Source: Ralstonia sp. UNC404CL21Col
Lineage (GTDB): Bacteria > Pseudomonadota > Gammaproteobacteria > Burkholderiales > Burkholderiaceae
Direction of reading: 5' to 3'
Length of the DNA: 64,000 nt
Assembly: GCF_000620465.1 (NCBI RefSeq)
Contig: NZ_JIBE01000003.1
Location: 310,001-374,000, forward strand
The first letter of the stretch is position 1. Every line of letters begins with the position of its first letter. The notes under the pieces are model-generated. The model was not told the DNA's origin and did no database searches. It was given only the letters and a program-made list of their open reading frames with translations. Below, piece after piece: positions 35,029 through 44,659 of the stretch. A program made the position numbers and the translations under genes.

Positions 35029-36696
<1,668 letters not shown>

Positions 36697-36784: not shown

Positions 36785-37606
36785 CTACGCGGCGTGCCGC
36801 ATGGCGCCTGCGTTGGCGCGCATTTCGCCGATCAATTCGCGGATCAACTCGGCCGTTTCCAGCGGTTTTTCCATCGGATAGAGATGGCTGCCCTCGATCC
36901 AGCGCAGCCTGCTGCCGACGATGCGCCGCGTCGCACCCAGTCCGACCTGACGAATCTCGCGCGAACGGGTGCCGGCCACAAAGCTGACCGGGAATGCCGT
37001 GCCGCCCGCGACCTTTCGCCCCATGTTGGTCGGCAAGGTGCGGTAAATCTGGTATTCGATTTCGCGCGAGAAGCGCAGTGTGCGCTCGCGATCACGGCCG
37101 GTGGGCTCGGTGCCATGTTCGACATAGTCGCGCAGCACGTCTTCGTCCCAACGATCGAACTTGCGTTTGGCCTTGAAGTGGCTCCAGACGGCGTCGAGGT
37201 CGGGCCACAGATGGCGCCGGTTCTTCGTCGCCGCGGCGGGCGACTGGCTCTCGTCGATGTCCAGCCATTGCGCCACGCGCAGCAGCTTGGCGCGCCATCC
37301 CGCGATGATCGGCGAATCGAGCATCACGACGCCGCGCACGCGTTCGGGCCGGCGCAACGCCGCCATCAGGCTCAGGAAGCCGCCCAAGGAATGGCCGACC
37401 AGCCAGACCGGCTCGGCCTGCGCGTCGATTTCTGCCAGCAGTTCTTTCACCAGGCCGGGCCAGGAGCGAGTGACCGGAAAACGCGGATCGTGCCCAAAGC
37501 GCTCCACCGCGCGGATGTCGAATTCATCCCCGAGCACACCGAGCATCTTGCGATAGGTGCCGACCGGAAAGCCGTTGGCATGCGAAAACAGCATCACGTC
37601 GCGCAT
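36785..37606 (-). CDS. Alpha/beta-fold hydrolase linked to the Anbu cluster
   Basis: 273-residue serine hydrolase. The opening MRDVMLFSHANGFPVGTYR is the oxyanion segment, the nucleophile elbow is VGHSLGGF (S73), and the catalytic histidine lies in EGSHLYPMEKP near the C-terminus. It is a probable esterase or peptidase-like enzyme with unknown substrate. It starts 17 bases after the Anbu gene on the same strand, so it is probably co-transcribed with the ATP-grasp/alpha-E/transglutaminase/Anbu genes. Whether it belongs to that system functionally is inference. The ATG at 37606 excludes an unrelated 69-residue extension. Confidence 0.85.
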   Translation of the reverse strand: MRDVMLFSHANGFPVGTYRKMLGVLGDEFDIRAVERFGHDPRFPVTRSWPGLVKELLAEIDAQAEPVWLVGHSLGGFLSLMAALRRPERVRGVVMLDSPIIAGWRAKLLRVAQWLDIDESQSPAAATKNRRHLWPDLDAVWSHFKAKRKFDRWDEDVLRDYVEHGTEPTGRDRERTLRFSREIEYQIYRTLPTNMGRKVAGGTAFPVSFVAGTRSREIRQVGLGATRRIVGSRLRWIEGSHLYPMEKPLETAELIRELIGEMRANAGAMRHAA

Positions 37607-37623
37607 TGCAGGTCCCGTGCCGT

Positions 37624-38526
37624 TCAGCGTGACTTCTGGGATCCGCCGGCCACGCGCTGGATCGTCGACACCTGCTCCAACGCGGGGCCGGGCGCGCGGT
37701 CCGGCGTGGCGGGCGCCTCGGCAGCGGGCGGCGCAATGCGCACGGGCCCCACCTCTGCAGAGGGATGCCCCTCCCGGCGCAAGGGGTGCGACGGTGAAGT
37801 GCCGGTTTCCCAATCCGGATCCTCGATTTCAGCAAACACTTGGCGCAGGCGCTTGCCCCACGTGCCGCGAATCATCGCGAAATACGGATTCTCTTCGTCG
37901 ATGGCCACAAAGCGCGTCACCCGCAGGGAGTCGGTTTCGTAGACCAGCAGATCCAGCGGCAACCCTACCGAAATATTCGACTTCAGCGTCGAATCCATCG
38001 AGATGAGCGCGCACTTCGCGGCTTCGTCCAGCGGCAGCCCCGGGCTGACCACGCGGTCAATGATCGGCTTGCCATACTTGGCCTCGCCGATCTGGAAGTA
38101 GCAGTTCTCGGGCGTGGCCTCAATGAAGTTGCCCGCCGCGTAGACGTTGAACAGGCGCGGCCGCTCTGCGCCGATCTGCCCGCCAAAGATGATGCTGACA
38201 TTGAAGTCGATCTTGGCCTTGGCCAGCGCCGCGGCGTCGCGGTCATAGACATCGCGTACGGCTTCGCCGACGATCGTGGCGGCCTCGAACATGTCCCGCG
38301 CCGTCCACAGCGAGCGCGGCTTGCCGCGTGCTTCGGTCAACACTTGGCGCACGGCCTGGCTGATCGCCAGATTCCCAGCCGTCAGCAGCACCATGACGCG
38401 ATCGCCTTCGCGCTCGAAGACGGTCATCTTGCGGAATGTGGAAATGGCGTCCACACCCGCATTCGTGCGGGAGTCGGACAGGAACACAAGGCCTGCGTCC
38501 AGGCGCATGGCGACGCAATAGGTCAT
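37624..38526 (-). CDS. Anbu (bacterial proteasome-homologue) peptidase
   Basis: 300-residue proteasome-type N-terminal-nucleophile hydrolase. After removal of the first Met the chain begins TYCVAMRLDAGLVFLSDSRT. Counting from that Thr, T1, D17 and K32 fall at the positions of the proteasome catalytic triad (T1, D17, K33). The rest follows the beta-subunit fold. Anbu proteins assemble into open helical rings and are linked to ATP-grasp, alpha-E and transglutaminase genes in many genomes, exactly as here. The substrate is unknown. Start MTYCVAM is diagnostic of the family. Confidence 0.93.
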   Translation of the reverse strand: MTYCVAMRLDAGLVFLSDSRTNAGVDAISTFRKMTVFEREGDRVMVLLTAGNLAISQAVRQVLTEARGKPRSLWTARDMFEAATIVGEAVRDVYDRDAAALAKAKIDFNVSIIFGGQIGAERPRLFNVYAAGNFIEATPENCYFQIGEAKYGKPIIDRVVSPGLPLDEAAKCALISMDSTLKSNISVGLPLDLLVYETDSLRVTRFVAIDEENPYFAMIRGTWGKRLRQVFAEIEDPDWETGTSPSHPLRREGHPSAEVGPVRIAPPAAEAPATPDRAPGPALEQVSTIQRVAGGSQKSR

Positions 38527-38609
38527 GGGCGAAACGACAAACGGAAACGGTGGGTTGGGGGCATTCTAGCGCGCCGGTCGGAACCCATCCGCGCGCTTGG
38601 AAGAGGTGC

Positions 38610-39455
38610 TCAATTCACGCCGACAGCCTCGACGGGCAGCGGCTCGATGGAAATACGGACGTCGAGCGTCTCCGCACCTCCGCCCTGCCGCACGCCACGC
38701 ACCGGCGCGGCCGATTGATAATCGCGCCCGACTGCCAGGCGGATGTGCCGCGTATCGGTAAAGCACTGGTGAGTGACGTCGATGCTGCACCAGGTGTGCG
38801 ATTCGGCGTCGAGGCACACGTCGGCCCAGGCGTGGCTGGCCAGATCTTCTTCCCCGACGGCATGGAAATAGCCGCTGACGTAGCGCGCCGGCACGCCCAG
38901 CGCGCGGCAGCAGGCGACCATCACCTGTGCCTGGTCCTGGCATACGCCGGCGCCCAGACCAAATGCCTCCGCAGCGGCCGTACCGACATGCGTGGTGTTC
39001 GGCTTGTAGCGCACGCGCTTGGCGATGGCCTGCGCCAGCCGCATCGCCGATTCAGCATCGCCCGGCACCAGCGCGTGCTCGCGCGCAAAGTTGACCATCT
39101 CCGGCGGCGCGGAAGTCAGCGGCGTGGCGGTCAGAAAATACAGCGGCGAAACGCGATAGCGCCCTTGGCCCGGTGCATCGACAAAGCGTTGGCTGCCGGG
39201 CGCGCCCGTAGGAAACGCCTCGACAACGCCGCGCGCCTCGATGGTGACGTCTTCCGTACGCGTGCCGAGGGTGAAGTGATGGACGACGTTGCCGAAACCG
39301 TCGGTGGCGCGCGTGAGGTTGCCGGGCGCGTGGATCTGCCAGCTATCCACCTGCTGCAGCTCGCCGCTGCGAGGCGTCAGCCGCAGCTCATGCACGCTAT
39401 GGCGTAGCGGCTCGGCATAACGGTAGACCGTCGTATGTCGAATTTGGTATTTCAC
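38610..39455 (-). CDS. Transglutaminase-like cysteine protease/amidase
   Basis: 281-residue protein. The N-terminal bacterial transglutaminase-like domain (MKYQIRHTTVYRYAEPLRHS) is followed by the papain-like core with catalytic C172 in GAGVCQDQA, H208 in ASHAWADV and D226 in SIDVTH. Bacterial members usually act as peptidases or amidases. The gene starts with GTG. It lies between alpha-E and Anbu genes with gaps of 58 and 83 bases, the standard place in this cluster. There is no signal peptide, so it is cytoplasmic. Confidence 0.9.
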   Translation of the reverse strand: MKYQIRHTTVYRYAEPLRHSVHELRLTPRSGELQQVDSWQIHAPGNLTRATDGFGNVVHHFTLGTRTEDVTIEARGVVEAFPTGAPGSQRFVDAPGQGRYRVSPLYFLTATPLTSAPPEMVNFAREHALVPGDAESAMRLAQAIAKRVRYKPNTTHVGTAAAEAFGLGAGVCQDQAQVMVACCRALGVPARYVSGYFHAVGEEDLASHAWADVCLDAESHTWCSIDVTHQCFTDTRHIRLAVGRDYQSAAPVRGVRQGGGAETLDVRISIEPLPVEAVGVN

Positions 39456-39513
39456 GATGACACGGGCGCGGCCCGAAAGCGGCGCCCCGATGTATGCACA
39501 ATGCCCTGCAGCG

Positions 39514-40464
39514 TCATGCGACTTCGAGCGGCACCAGGAAATCCTGACTGATGCCGTTGCCCAGGTCGCCGATCCGCTCCAGGAAGTTGGTCAGCCAGGC
39601 ATGCAGGCCGACCGAAAAGATATCTTCAATGCGGGCGTACCGCAGGTCGGCGTGCAGTTTACCAGCGCGCCGCTCCGTCTCCGCCGATTGACTGTTGCGC
39701 ACGGTGGAAAGAATGCTGACCACCTCGTCCATGCTGGCCAGGAGGGAGCGCGGCATATCGCTGCGCAGGATCAGCAGCTCCGCCACGCGCGTCGGCGTAA
39801 TGACGTTGCGATAGATCTTGCGATACACCTCGAAACCCGATACGGAGCGCAGCGTGGCGGCCCAGTGATAGAAGTCGCCCTGCTCGGCGGCCGATTCATC
39901 GCGCGTTGGCGTCGACTGGAACTTCACGTCGAGCAGCCGGGCCGTGTTGTCCGCACGCTCCAGGAAGGTCCCCAGCCGCATGAACTGGAACGCGTCATCC
40001 GTCAGCATGGTGCCGACCTGCACACCGCGCGACAGGTGCGAGCGGAACTTCACCCATTCAAAGAATTGCGATGGATCGTCGCGCAGCATGCCTTCGCCAA
40101 TCAGGCGCTGCACATCCAGCCAGGTGGTGTTGATGGTTTCCCACACCTCCGTGGTGAGGGAGCCGCGCACGGCTCGGGCGTTCTCGCGCGCGCCGCGCAG
40201 GCAGCTCATGATCGAAGACGGGTTGGTCATGTCGCGCACCATGAAGTCGATCACGTCGTCGCGCGAAAGCAGGCCGTAGCGGTCGGCAAAAACCCGGGTG
40301 AGTTCGGAAATATCGAGCATTGCCCACCAGCCCTGCTCCGCCACTTCGGCCGATTGCGGCATCAGCGAGGTCTGGTAGTTCACGTCGAGCATGCGGGCGG
40401 TGTTCTCGGCGCGTTCGGTGTAGCGCGCCATCCAGAAAAGGTGGTCTGCGGTGCGGCTGAGCAT
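39514..40464 (-). CDS. Alpha-E domain protein
   Basis: 316-residue all-helical protein of the alpha-E family, beginning MLSRTADHLFWMARYTERAE, the diagnostic N-terminus. Conserved acidic and arginine residues recur, as in FLERADNTARLLDVKF and the closing FLERIGDLGNGI. The family was defined by its strict association with circularly permuted ATP-grasp proteins, and its molecular role is unknown. AGGGAA stands five bases before the ATG. The upstream frame is open further but not family-like. Confidence 0.92.
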   Translation of the reverse strand: MLSRTADHLFWMARYTERAENTARMLDVNYQTSLMPQSAEVAEQGWWAMLDISELTRVFADRYGLLSRDDVIDFMVRDMTNPSSIMSCLRGARENARAVRGSLTTEVWETINTTWLDVQRLIGEGMLRDDPSQFFEWVKFRSHLSRGVQVGTMLTDDAFQFMRLGTFLERADNTARLLDVKFQSTPTRDESAAEQGDFYHWAATLRSVSGFEVYRKIYRNVITPTRVAELLILRSDMPRSLLASMDEVVSILSTVRNSQSAETERRAGKLHADLRYARIEDIFSVGLHAWLTNFLERIGDLGNGISQDFLVPLEVA

Positions 40465-40546
40465 GGCGTTCCCTTCTACGTATTCGATATGCGGTGGATC
40501 GACTGATCGATTGATCGATGGCCAGGTTGCGTCGCTGCGCGAACGT

Positions 40547-42031
40547 TCAGCGCTCCAGCACCCACGTGTCCTTCGTTCCGCCGCCCTGCGATGAGTTGAC
40601 CACCAGCGAGCCGGCCCGCAACGCCACGCGCGTGAGGCCGCCGGGCACCATGCGCACGTCCTTGCCGGACAGCACGAACGGCCGAAGATCGATGTGGCGC
40701 GGCGCGATACCGGCTTCCACATACGTTGGGCAAGTCGACAGCGCCAGGGTAGGCTGCGCGATGTATTGATCGGGGCGGGCCTTCACCACCTCGCGGAAAG
40801 CCGCGATCTCCTCCTGCGTGGCTGCCGGGCCGACCAGCATGCCGTAACCGCCCGCGCCGTGCGTCTCTTTGACGACCAGTTCGCCCATGTGGTCCAGGAC
40901 GTATTGCAGGTCATCCGGCCGGCGGCACATGTACGTCGGCACGTTGTTCAGAATCGGCTCCTCGCCCAGGTAGAAGCGGATCATGTCCGGCACATACGGA
41001 TAGATCGACTTGTCGTCTGCCACGCCGGTGCCGATGGCATTGCAAATGGTGACGTTGCCCGCGCGATAGACCGACAACAGGCCGGCTGCGCCCAGCGAAG
41101 AATCGGGCCGGAAGACGAGCGGATCGAGGAAGTCGTCGTCCACACGGCGGTAGATGACATCGATGCGCTGCGGGCCCTGCGTCGTGCGCATGTAGAGATG
41201 GTCGTCCTGCACGAACAGGTCGTGCCCCTCCACCAGCTCGACACCCATCTGCTGCGCCAGGAACGCATGTTCGAAATACGCGGAGTTGTACATGCCGGGC
41301 GTGAGCACCACCACCGTCGGGTCGGCAATGTTCTGCGGCGAGACGCTGCGCAGCATGTCGAGCAGCATGTCGGGGTAATGCGCGACCGGCGCCACACGAT
41401 TGCGTGCGAACAACTCCGGAAACAGCCGCATCATCATCTTGCGGTTTTCCAGCATGTACGACACACCGGAGGGCACGCGCAGGTTGTCTTCCAGCACGTA
41501 GAACTCGCCCTCGCCGGCGCGCACGATGTCGATGCCCGCCACGTGCGCGTAGATGTCGCGCGGCACGTTGACGCCAAGCATGTCCGGGCGATATTGGGCG
41601 TTGTTGTAGATCTGGTCGGGCGGGATGACGCCCGCGCGCAGGATGTTCTGCTCGTGGTAGATGTCGTGGAGGAAGCGGTTCAGCGCATCAACGCGTTGTC
41701 GCAGACCGCGCTCGAGCGTGGCCCACTCGCTTGCGGGGAAGATGCGCGGAATGATGTCGAACGGGATCGTGCGCTCGGTGCCGCTGTTCGATTCGTCCTT
41801 GTCGCCGTACACCGCAAAGGTGATGCCGACCCGGCGGAAGATCAGGTCCGCCTCGGCGCGCTTGTTCTGCAGCGTTGTGGCGGATTGCGCGCCCAGCCAT
41901 TCGGCGAAACGTCCGTAGTGGCTGCGAACCTCGCCCTGCTGGACGAGCGCTGCCGGGGCCGGTTCGGCGGCATGGGGACTGCGGTCCCCGTCATGCCAGT
42001 TGAGCATTTCATCGTAGAACCGGACTGCCAT
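40547..42031 (-). CDS. Circularly permuted type 2 ATP-grasp protein
   Basis: 494-residue predicted ATP-dependent carboxylate-amine ligase. The family is recognised by the segment FDIIPRIFPASEWATLERGL, by DIVRAGEGEFYVLEDNLRVPSG (ATP and metal site region), and by VVKETHGAGGYGMLVGP and the C-terminal PFVLSGKDVRMVPGGLTRVAL. Such enzymes are predicted to join amino acids or short peptides, but no product has been firmly shown. It heads the alpha-E, transglutaminase, Anbu, hydrolase run on the minus strand. N-terminal residues before the conserved core may not all be translated. Confidence 0.93.
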   Translation of the reverse strand: MAVRFYDEMLNWHDGDRSPHAAEPAPAALVQQGEVRSHYGRFAEWLGAQSATTLQNKRAEADLIFRRVGITFAVYGDKDESNSGTERTIPFDIIPRIFPASEWATLERGLRQRVDALNRFLHDIYHEQNILRAGVIPPDQIYNNAQYRPDMLGVNVPRDIYAHVAGIDIVRAGEGEFYVLEDNLRVPSGVSYMLENRKMMMRLFPELFARNRVAPVAHYPDMLLDMLRSVSPQNIADPTVVVLTPGMYNSAYFEHAFLAQQMGVELVEGHDLFVQDDHLYMRTTQGPQRIDVIYRRVDDDFLDPLVFRPDSSLGAAGLLSVYRAGNVTICNAIGTGVADDKSIYPYVPDMIRFYLGEEPILNNVPTYMCRRPDDLQYVLDHMGELVVKETHGAGGYGMLVGPAATQEEIAAFREVVKARPDQYIAQPTLALSTCPTYVEAGIAPRHIDLRPFVLSGKDVRMVPGGLTRVALRAGSLVVNSSQGGGTKDTWVLER

Positions 42032-42136
42032 GCTTTTCTCCCCTGACGGCGCCGCGCGATGTACGCGGCACGTGGTTTTTATAGCACAGCGGTTTTAACC
42101 CCCACAATGGGGCCAACCCGTTGTGCCACCAAGTTT

Positions 42137-44659
42137 TCACGGCTGGGCGTCGAAGGCGCCGGTGGCCGTTGCCAGGGGTTCCACTTCCTGTGCGGAAGAC
42201 CAGTACCGCGGCCGCATGGCGCGGGCAGTCTGGATGTCCAGCACATCGCCGTCGGTCTGAATGACGACGGCACCGGTCTTGTCCGTGCGCAAACCGTCGA
42301 TGTCGCGCGCCACGTAGCGCTGCCAAACCTGCGGATGCGGATGTCCGTACCGATTGCGGTAGCCGACCTGGAAAACCGCCACCTGCGGAGAAACCGCGTC
42401 CAAGAACGCGCCGCTGGAGCTTGTCTTGCTGCCGTGATGAGGCACAAGCAAGATGTCTGCCATCAGTCGCTCAGGCGTTTCCGCAGCGATGAGTGCGCTT
42501 TCCTGGGCGGCTTCGATATCGCCGGTCAGCAAGGCAGCGTGGCGGCCGTTGGCGATACGAAGCACACAACTGCGGGCGTTGCTGGACACGCGCTCGCTTT
42601 CAGCCGGCACGCGGCGCGGGTGCAGCACCTCAAATTCAACGCCGTCCCACGTCCATGCTTGCCCAGCCAAACAATCGGCAAAACCGATGTCTTTGGCCTC
42701 GGCCGTGCCGCGCAGGGCATGCCCGGGAGGCAAAGACGCCAACATGGTGCGCACCGGCACCGCGCCGATCACCGTTTCGGTGCCACCGGCGTGGTCGCTG
42801 TCTTCGTGACTGACGACAAGCGTGTCGAGCGCTTCCACGCCGCGTGCTCGCAGGTAGGGAGCGATGACGCGGGCGGCGGCATCCGCATGGTCGCCGTAGC
42901 GGGGGCCGGTGTCGAACAGCAGGCGGTGGTTGGCCGTTTCGACCAAGGCCGCCGCACCCTGGCCGATGTCGAAGGCGACGAGCCGGAATTCGCCGGGCGA
43001 TGGCAATGGCACGCGCGCCAGCACCAACGGCAAGAGGAGCAAGGCACCCTGCGCACGCCACGCCCATGCGCGCAGACCACCCGGCACCAGCAATAACGCC
43101 ACCGCAACCATCGACAGCAACACTGCCCACATGGGCGCAACCGGCGCAACCCACACAGACCAGCGCGGCGCCGCCAGCCATTCAAGCCAGACGACCAGCC
43201 ACCGGAAGCTCGCTTCGGCCAACATCAGAACCGGCTGCGCCAGCGGGTCCGGAAGCGCCGCGCCGATCAGCGCCAACGGCGTCGTCACAAAACTGACCGC
43301 GGGAATCGCCAGCCCATTCGCCGCTGCGGAAACGATCGAGGTTTGCTGGAACAGCAGCAACGTCAAGGGCAACAGCCCGAATGTGACCGCGAACTGAATC
43401 CGCGTGCCGCCAGCCAGCGTGCGGCGCGTGCGTTCGACCCAGCCGTCTGCGTTGTCGTTGCGATGACCATCGAGCGCCATCTGTGCGGCGATGAAGATGA
43501 TCGCCACCGCGCCGAACGACAGCCAGAAGCCCGCCGACATGACGGCCCACGGGTCTACCACCGCCACCACGGCCGCCGCCCAGCACAGCGAGAGGCTGGC
43601 CGGCACATTGCGGTCGGTCAGCCGGGCGATGGCGACGGTGGACAACATCAGCAGCGTGCGCTGCGCCGGCACGCCCATCCCGGCGAGCAGGCAGTAGACG
43701 AACGCCGCCAGCATCGCCGCGATGGCGCCTGCGCGTGGAGCCGGCATGCGTAGCGGCAATGGCACGCGCAGCCGGCGCGTCAGCCCGAACGAGCGACGCC
43801 ACAGCGCCATCCACAACGCTGCAAACAGCCCGGCGATCATCGTGATGTGCAGCCCGGAAATGCTGACGAGGTGACTGATGCCGGTGCGACGAAACAGGTC
43901 CCAGTCGTCGCGGGCGATGCCGCTCTGGTCGCCCACCACCAGGGCGACGATGACCGCCGCGTAGCGCGCATCGGGCAAGGCGTGAACGATGTGGCGCCGC
44001 ACGCTGGCCCGCCAGCGCTCCACGCCGATGCTGAAACCGGTGCCTGCCCCATCCAGCGCGATGTTCTGTGCGCGCTTGCCTGTGCGCACATAGCCGACGG
44101 CGCGGATGTTGTCGGCGAGCATCGCGTATTCGCCGTCGAAGCCGCCCGGGTTGGTCAGGCTGTGCGGACGCTTCAGGCGCAGCGTCAGTTGCCAGCGTTG
44201 GCCGGGCTGCAGATCGGGGATGCCGGCACGTCGGTCTGGCTTCGCATCTTCCTCGCCCGCGTTGCTCCACGTCCGTGCGCCATACCAGGACAGGCGCACG
44301 CGGGGCGGCACGGCATCACCCGCATTGCTGGATTCGATGTGGAAGAGAAAACGCGTGGCGTCATCACCGGTCTGCGGCAGCTCGGCCACCACGCCGGTCG
44401 CGATGATGTCCTTGCCTTCCCACGCAGGACTGAGCGCGACGGCCAAGCGTTGCTGCGCGCGCCAATCGCTCCAGCCAAAGCCCACGGCGATGGTGCTGGC
44501 GACGAACAACACAGGAAACAACATCGGCCGACGCCGCGTGACAGCGGCCAGCGACAGACAGAGCACCAGCACGCCAAGCGGCAGCCATACCGGCGGCAGC
44601 GTCGCCTGCATCTGCAATGCCACGCAGCCGGCAACAAAGCCGATCAACCCGAGACGCAT
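42137..44659 (-). CDS. comEC: DNA internalization channel protein ComEC/Rec2
   Basis: 840-residue inner-membrane protein that carries single-stranded DNA into the cytoplasm during natural transformation. The N-terminal hydrophobic region includes a DUF4131-type part. The Competence domain has many membrane helices (HLVSISGLHITMIAGLFAALW, YCLLAGMGVPAQRTLLML). A C-terminal metallo-beta-lactamase-like domain carries FDIGQGAAALVET, VVSHEDSDHAGGTET and LLTGDIEAAQE. All three parts are present, so the gene looks intact. Ralstonia species are known to be naturally competent. Confidence 0.95.
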   Translation of the reverse strand: MRLGLIGFVAGCVALQMQATLPPVWLPLGVLVLCLSLAAVTRRRPMLFPVLFVASTIAVGFGWSDWRAQQRLAVALSPAWEGKDIIATGVVAELPQTGDDATRFLFHIESSNAGDAVPPRVRLSWYGARTWSNAGEEDAKPDRRAGIPDLQPGQRWQLTLRLKRPHSLTNPGGFDGEYAMLADNIRAVGYVRTGKRAQNIALDGAGTGFSIGVERWRASVRRHIVHALPDARYAAVIVALVVGDQSGIARDDWDLFRRTGISHLVSISGLHITMIAGLFAALWMALWRRSFGLTRRLRVPLPLRMPAPRAGAIAAMLAAFVYCLLAGMGVPAQRTLLMLSTVAIARLTDRNVPASLSLCWAAAVVAVVDPWAVMSAGFWLSFGAVAIIFIAAQMALDGHRNDNADGWVERTRRTLAGGTRIQFAVTFGLLPLTLLLFQQTSIVSAAANGLAIPAVSFVTTPLALIGAALPDPLAQPVLMLAEASFRWLVVWLEWLAAPRWSVWVAPVAPMWAVLLSMVAVALLLVPGGLRAWAWRAQGALLLLPLVLARVPLPSPGEFRLVAFDIGQGAAALVETANHRLLFDTGPRYGDHADAAARVIAPYLRARGVEALDTLVVSHEDSDHAGGTETVIGAVPVRTMLASLPPGHALRGTAEAKDIGFADCLAGQAWTWDGVEFEVLHPRRVPAESERVSSNARSCVLRIANGRHAALLTGDIEAAQESALIAAETPERLMADILLVPHHGSKTSSSGAFLDAVSPQVAVFQVGYRNRYGHPHPQVWQRYVARDIDGLRTDKTGAVVIQTDGDVLDIQTARAMRPRYWSSAQEVEPLATATGAFDAQP

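Follow-up and report, generated by a model that had tools for sequence, protein, structure and literature searches.

Whether Anbu, a homologue of the proteasome, takes part in a peptide-synthesis pathway or works as an independent protease has been a question since 2009, and a 2017 structure paper leaned toward the protease. We approached this question through a locus of Ralstonia sp. UNC404CL21Col that lies in a stretch of 64,000 nucleotides (contig NZ_JIBE01000003.1, positions 310,001 to 374,000; hereafter the window), where a sequence-only reading had proposed that five genes form a peptide-ligation and peptide-processing system. All five open frames were present on the minus strand, as follows (lengths in amino acids, aa):

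40547-42031, minus strand: circularly permuted ATP-grasp type 2 (predicted amide ligase), 494 aa; Pfam PF14403 (CP_ATPgrasp_2), E 1.5e-171
39514-40464, minus strand: alpha-E, 316 aa; Pfam PF04168 (Alpha-E), E 1.2e-97
38610-39455, minus strand: transglutaminase-like protein with a GTG start, 281 aa, an optional member; Bact_transglu_N, E 4.6e-23, and Transglut_core, E 7.9e-20
37624-38526, minus strand: Anbu proteasome homologue, 300 aa; Pfam Proteasome, E 4.4e-05, and solved Anbu structures
36785-37606, minus strand: alpha/beta hydrolase, 273 aa, judged a neighbour and not a member; Abhydrolase_6, E 7.1e-13

The order ATP-grasp, alpha-E, transglutaminase-like protein and Anbu on one strand is that of the published four-gene Anbu operon, which was reportedly described by Iyer in 2009, and the locus is a well-preserved, intact copy of this known operon in a Ralstonia relative. 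The nearest named relative among the matches listed was Ralstonia soli (94% Anbu identity over the best-matching segment), and gene order was the same there and in Cupriavidus-type loci. The reading of the four genes as a ligase working with Anbu is itself an already published hypothesis. The Anbu operon of Yersinia bercovieri, in the available text of Piasecka 2017 (PMC6376114), holds the same four families and the same Anbu triad (Thr1, Asp17 and Lys32, or 33); the window differs from it in having the hydrolase 17 bases after Anbu and the cassette placed between comEC and pyrG. So far as the available portions of the cited papers extend, the operon, the split-ring form of Anbu and its lack of peptidase activity, the release of phosphate by ATP-grasp and expression under nitrogen limitation are already published.

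We surveyed the co-inheritance of these genes in 250 genomes of the window's order and 160 genomes of its phylum, two samples that share five genomes. Within the order, Anbu was found in 136 genomes, alpha-E in 145, ATP-grasp in 146 and Bact_transglu_N in 138; Anbu and alpha-E occurred together in 132 genomes, and alpha-E and ATP-grasp together in 143. Four Anbu genomes of the order were without alpha-E and five without ATP-grasp, including three without both (G084, G159 and G249; the best Anbu match in G159 spans just 44 residues), and 13 genomes had alpha-E and no Anbu. The phylum sample had 57 Anbu genomes, 56 of which held both partners (the exception was G466), with a stand-alone alpha-E within 10 kilobases (kb) of Anbu in 49 of the 57; alpha-E without Anbu was seen in 33 genomes. 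Among the 188 distinct Anbu genomes, 184 kept ATP-grasp or alpha-E and four were without both. The partners were still kept in all six genomes examined from family f49, where contig positions put Anbu 87 kb or more away from ATP-grasp and alpha-E (the pairing of Anbu and hydrolase in this family is also seen in named Comamonadaceae and Sphaerotilus-type loci, and we therefore call the family comamonad-type). Such retention even when the genes are unlinked speaks against Anbu as a free-standing protease, and the asymmetry, with Anbu rarely found without its partners and alpha-E often found without Anbu, fits an Anbu that acts on the product of ATP-grasp and alpha-E. The survey provides independent evidence on the question: Anbu is rarely parted from ATP-grasp or alpha-E, whereas the gene physically nearest to it, that of the hydrolase, is not inherited together with it. 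The coupling of ATP-grasp, alpha-E and Anbu put forward in the sequence-only reading is thus supported by co-inheritance, but its inclusion of the hydrolase is not.

With moderate confidence, we favor a pathway in which ATP-grasp and alpha-E make an amide-linked product or tag that Anbu cleaves or recycles, the hydrolase being a bystander. ATP-grasp, with alpha-E as its constant partner, would activate a carboxylate as an acyl phosphate and join it to an amine, giving the amide-linked product or tag, probably under nitrogen limitation in many relatives. Anbu, as a split-ring N-terminal-threonine hydrolase, would then cleave or recycle this product, and the transglutaminase-like protein may act on the same material as an optional amidase or peptidase. 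The alpha/beta hydrolase would stand outside the pathway, with the cassette sitting between comEC and hydrolase-pyrG in this lineage. The pairing of a ligase with a proteasome-like chamber is a logic shared with Pup-proteasome tagging, in which the ligase fold differs. A further difference from that system, according to the available sections of PMC5666114, is that no AAA+ partner is known for Anbu.

Several observations weigh against this pathway. The orphan Anbu genes of G084, G249 and G466 look intact and occur without ATP-grasp or alpha-E, and no replacement ligase was recognised among the 16 frames around them. All p values reported here come from Fisher tests that ignore relatedness; the structure model of the ATP-grasp-alpha-E fusion has no confident domain arrangement (predicted template modelling score, pTM, 0.60); and no canonical sigma-54 site (TGGCAC-N5-TTGCW type) was found ahead of the window's ATP-grasp. 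In the available text of PMC6376114, peptidase activity was not found for the tested Anbu proteins on standard substrates, nor was a specific interaction found between the operon proteins; Fuchs et al. (PMC5666114, in part) thought it less likely that Anbu takes part in peptide synthesis. The three orphan genes also favor the rival explanation that Anbu is a free-standing general protease (for example, in protein turnover in nitrogen limitation) with loosely associated operon partners. For a protease, the sections of Fuchs et al. used here cite proteasome-inhibitor binding, differing pockets in Anbu-1 and Anbu-2 and a ring-like architecture, as well as raised Anbu in nitrogen-limited Pseudomonas putida. 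However, the missing peptidase activity counts against this explanation too, as does the retention of a partner in 184 of 188 Anbu genomes, and we regard it as unlikely. On peptide synthesis, co-inheritance speaks the other way from the doubt expressed in that part of PMC5666114. The accessible part of PMC8665760 states that Anbu has no known function.

The intact families and their conserved catalytic residues count in favor of the ligase-plus-Anbu pathway. The Anbu of the window matched five distinct sequences of solved structures (5loy, 5nyw, 5nyj, 5nyf and 5lox, all E ≤ 5e-65), the best match being the designed Anbu 5loy (E 3.2e-94). Its triad Thr1, Asp17 and Lys32 (T2, D18 and K33 when the Met is counted), already noted from the sequence alone, was invariant in 17 of 17 proteins, with no loss of Thr1 seen among them. 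The Anbu of Pseudomonas aeruginosa belongs to the same family (5lox, E 5e-65) and has the same triad in the available text of Fuchs 2017 (PMC5666114); the window's protein differs in an extra tail after about residue 240. This C-terminal tail (window 37624-37800) is Pro/Ala-rich, comprises about 60 residues and varies between relatives in both length and sequence. A quick Anbu tree of 81 rows placed the Ralstonia-Cupriavidus group beside group f49 with weak support (79). At the Aquabacterium commune locus (L130:10001), the start of Anbu overlaps the stop of a mutS-like gene, a name we assume, and no hydrolase match was found there between Anbu and pyrG.

The ATP-grasp matched one solved structure, PDB 3n6x (E 9.9e-217). 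Had its ligands been lost in alignment, this would have argued against activity; Glu181, Asn183, Lys341 and Lys388 were instead invariant in 18 of 18 stand-alone proteins. We take the roles of these residues to be those of ATP-grasp enzymes generally, with lysines and acidic or Asn metal ligands. In the available text of PMC6376114, the ATP-grasp of the Yersinia bercovieri operon releases phosphate from ATP.

The window's genome carries a second locus of the same families (G000:C4, L161), and Anbu was not found at it. It encodes a transglutaminase-DUF2126 protein (1177 aa), an ATP-grasp-alpha-E fusion (862 aa) and a transglutaminase (295 aa), the fusion being placed as follows:

L161:11103-13691 (G000:C4): ATP-grasp-alpha-E fusion, beside transglutaminase-DUF2126, in the window's own genome

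Unlike in the window cassette, ATP-grasp and alpha-E are fused here, which counts toward the coupling of these two proteins, and the ATP-grasp residues are eroded. Compared with the 18 stand-alone proteins, the 12 usable fused ATP-grasps (a thirteenth, L197, was badly cut and left out of this comparison) kept Glu181 in 0/12, Asn183 in 0/12, Lys341 in 1/12, Lys388 in 5/12 and Glu389 in 1/12. Because of this erosion, the fused ATP-grasp is probably not an ordinary ligase. Judged by these residues, the Anbu-linked ATP-grasp appears to be the genome's intact copy, which makes it the ligase of interest. Elsewhere, in one metagenome-assembled genome, a TPR-GGDEF protein lies between ATP-grasp and alpha-E (L092:7230-9011) and no transglutaminase was found in the locus; a similar gap of 1.7 kb separates ATP-grasp from alpha-E at L100.

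Alpha-E was modelled by AlphaFold as all-helical (from 33 sequences; per-residue confidence score, pLDDT, 87.3; pTM 0.87). No sequence match to it was found in the PDB up to E 1, and no convincing PDB relative turned up. Its two halves (residues 1-155 and 156-316) were homologous in a single hhalign comparison (probability 98.4, E 4.4e-15, 101 columns, 23% identity), and their plain local score was 81 against a maximum of 49 over 500 shuffles, identifying alpha-E as an internal tandem duplication. An ER motif occurs twice in the protein (window 39514-40464), as ERAENTARMLDV and ERADNTARLLDV. The residue pairs E17/R18 and E169/R170 were invariant in 33 of 33 stand-alone alpha-E proteins, and all 13 fused proteins examined share the matching E549/R550 and E707/R708. 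The duplicated ER motif offers a target for mutation. By analogy with connectase, a ligating proteasome homologue, Anbu might be, rather than a protease, a dedicated transferase or hydrolase on the ATP-grasp/alpha-E product, with alpha-E, which has two equivalent ER sites, presenting that product in a cycle run under nitrogen limitation in many relatives; we consider this specific version improbable.

The transglutaminase-like protein is a frequent but not obligatory member of the cassette. Its triad, also named in advance from the window's sequence, held up on alignment, with His208 and Asp226 in 23/23 sequences and Cys172 in 22/23. In the Pararobbsia protein (L118:9058-9858), Ser replaces the catalytic Cys172. 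Bact_transglu_N had no match in 12 of the 136 Anbu genomes of the order; two genomes of group f49 (G093 and G133) were without a match altogether, and no transglutaminase was called downstream of alpha-E in six loci of this group (L061-L066).

The other question raised by the locus is whether the hydrolase is part of the system. The shared direction and short gaps that had been pointed out for the five genes are real, but they are not special to them, as the flanking genes run the same way, namely kdsA further downstream and the following two, whose names comEC and pyrG we presume:

42137-44659, minus strand: comEC-type gene, upstream syntenic flank; same flank in Ralstonia soli, Cupriavidus-type loci and Burkholderiaceae PBA
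35029-36693, minus strand: pyrG (CTP synthase), downstream syntenic flank; same flank in relatives

The gaps, read from the sequence, are 105 bases (comEC to ATP-grasp), 82 (ATP-grasp to alpha-E), 58 (alpha-E to transglutaminase), 83 (transglutaminase to Anbu), 17 (Anbu to hydrolase) and 91 (hydrolase to pyrG), and no terminator-like site was called on this strand in the gaps of the run. Because shared direction does not bound a five-gene run, membership of the hydrolase needed a comparative test. In the order sample, a hydrolase orthologue (cut at about 110 bits) was present in 46 of 250 genomes, 37 with Anbu and nine without, and was lacking from 99 of the 136 Anbu genomes. Co-occurrence with Anbu was significant across the order (p = 7e-5), but it was no weaker with alpha-E, ATP-grasp or transglutaminase and may reflect genome size or descent.

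The neighbourhood comparison, which the sequence-only reading had proposed as a check, gave a divided answer, with the hydrolase following Anbu directly in 56 of 95 genomes of family f49 but adjoining it in just 8 of the 37 genomes of the order that have both. The f49 set comprised 130 genomes. Resident-type Anbu (at least 56% identity) was present in 95 of them, where the hydrolase was otherwise within 12 kb on the same strand (8), elsewhere (11) or absent (20); it lay elsewhere in 10 of 10 genomes with only a distant-type Anbu; and it was kept in 16 and absent from nine of the 25 genomes without Anbu. Presence of the hydrolase was thus independent of Anbu in this family (85/105 with Anbu versus 16/25 without, p = 0.11 for all 130), also with the 10 distant-type genomes left out (p = 0.19) or counted as lacking resident Anbu (p = 0.64). 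Either gene can also stand before pyrG without the other: Anbu is followed by pyrG with the hydrolase absent at L175 and L176, and the hydrolase by pyrG with Anbu absent at L177 and L178. The case for the alpha/beta hydrolase as a functional fifth member can draw on the 17-base gap, the frequent f49 adjacency, the order-wide co-occurrence and the many named loci in which the Anbu-hydrolase arrangement is seen and pyrG was not found within the locus. Set against the absences, the Anbu-less genomes and the equally strong correlations with the other genes, we consider it very unlikely. The hydrolase is probably a bystander beside the cassette, and its frequent adjacency to Anbu in f49 leaves a weak link possible.

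We also fetched 26 regions centred on hydrolase orthologues that are not beside Anbu, some of them on short contigs. The comEC gene adjoins the hydrolase in five (L049, L050, L052, L053 and L054; one from the window's family and four from group f8), and pyrG lies on its other side, within 1.1 kb, in four of these five. Neither gene was found next to the hydrolase in the remaining 21 regions (at L051, comEC is 8 kb away). The cassette lies between comEC and hydrolase-pyrG in the window, in one further genome (G158), in Ralstonia soli, in three Cupriavidus-type loci, where about 4 kb of other genes separate comEC from ATP-grasp, and in Burkholderiaceae PBA. In 6/6 genomes examined from group f49, ATP-grasp and alpha-E are 0.1 to 4.2 kb downstream of comEC, with Anbu and the hydrolase together elsewhere; the two parts look like halves of the window's arrangement. 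The cassette may have come in between comEC and the hydrolase by insertion, or it may have moved away from there in other families.

The condition under which the cassette is expressed was addressed by scanning upstream of ATP-grasp for TGGCACNNNNNTTGCW (the -24/-12 site of sigma-54, at most one mismatch); the matches are candidate sites. A site lay within 500 bases upstream in 27 of 39 loci (38 named loci and L047); the background rate in these loci was 0.011 per 530 bases. Of the named loci, 37 offered 300 or more bases upstream; 26 of these had a site within 500 bases and 20 within 150, and the same scan at control genes gave 0/41 upstream of alpha-E, 0/37 of transglutaminase, 1/80 of Anbu and 0/29 of the hydrolase. 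Sites nearest to ATP-grasp were those of Achromobacter, Bordetella, Paraburkholderia, Pararobbsia, Janthinobacterium, Duganella and their kin; those of Cupriavidus-type loci are 211-228 bases upstream, which in L047 is between the preceding frame and ATP-grasp. In 40 further genomes, taken from the 57 phylum-sample Anbu genomes and chosen before scanning, 13 had a site on the sense strand and none on the antisense strand (over 30 shuffled runs the mean was 0.8 and the maximum 3). These sites at the head of many cassettes point to nitrogen limitation as the condition. The available text of PMC7801951 describes Pseudomonas putida PP_2685-2688, which likewise has proteasome-like and transglutaminase genes in one cluster, as induced in nitrogen limitation and lists it as ntrB/ntrC-regulated; part of PMC13207237 tables a Bradyrhizobium CP_ATPgrasp_1 gene with the site TGGCCCGGCCCTTGC, the same sequence as carried by L206 and L207; and according to the accessible part of PMC5491218, a Burkholderia cenocepacia cluster of DUF404/407, DUF403 and transglutaminase depends on NtrC and sigma-54. 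It is reasonably probable, and compatible with the favored pathway, that nitrogen limitation turns the cassette on through NtrC and sigma-54, whatever its chemistry. On the other side, 11 of the 37 named loci and 27 of the 40 others had no such site, two of the 26 named-locus sites (L081 and L085) fall inside comEC and are thus coding, and no passage with the family names of the cassette was found in the available text of PMC5748707, on nitrogen starvation in Paraburkholderia phymatum.

For the window's own copy, which differs from the nitrogen-limitation-induced P. putida cluster in being without a canonical sigma-54 site, such control is rather doubtful. Ahead of ATP-grasp in the window and in Ralstonia soli, the sole site with at most one mismatch lies within comEC at a distance of about 430 bases, where the codons spell the MADILLVPHHG motif of that gene; the Burkholderiaceae PBA site, 476 bases upstream, is by position also in comEC. 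The 39 weaker sigma-54 matches in the window are at chance level (mean 40). The gap between comEC and ATP-grasp holds the following:

42113-42128, minus strand: TGGCAC-N6-TTGG, sigma-54-like and possibly a remnant; its spacer is one base longer than in a proper site, and its last base does not fit

Ralstonia soli has TGGCAT-N6-TTGG as its counterpart. Since a mis-spaced site stands alone in the gap, this lineage may have lost or altered the promoter. At two Achromobacter loci (L111 and L114), NtrC-like dyads of the TGCACC-N5-GGTGCA type lie 393 bases upstream of ATP-grasp, the sole ones listed by the scan of the ATP-grasp upstream regions.

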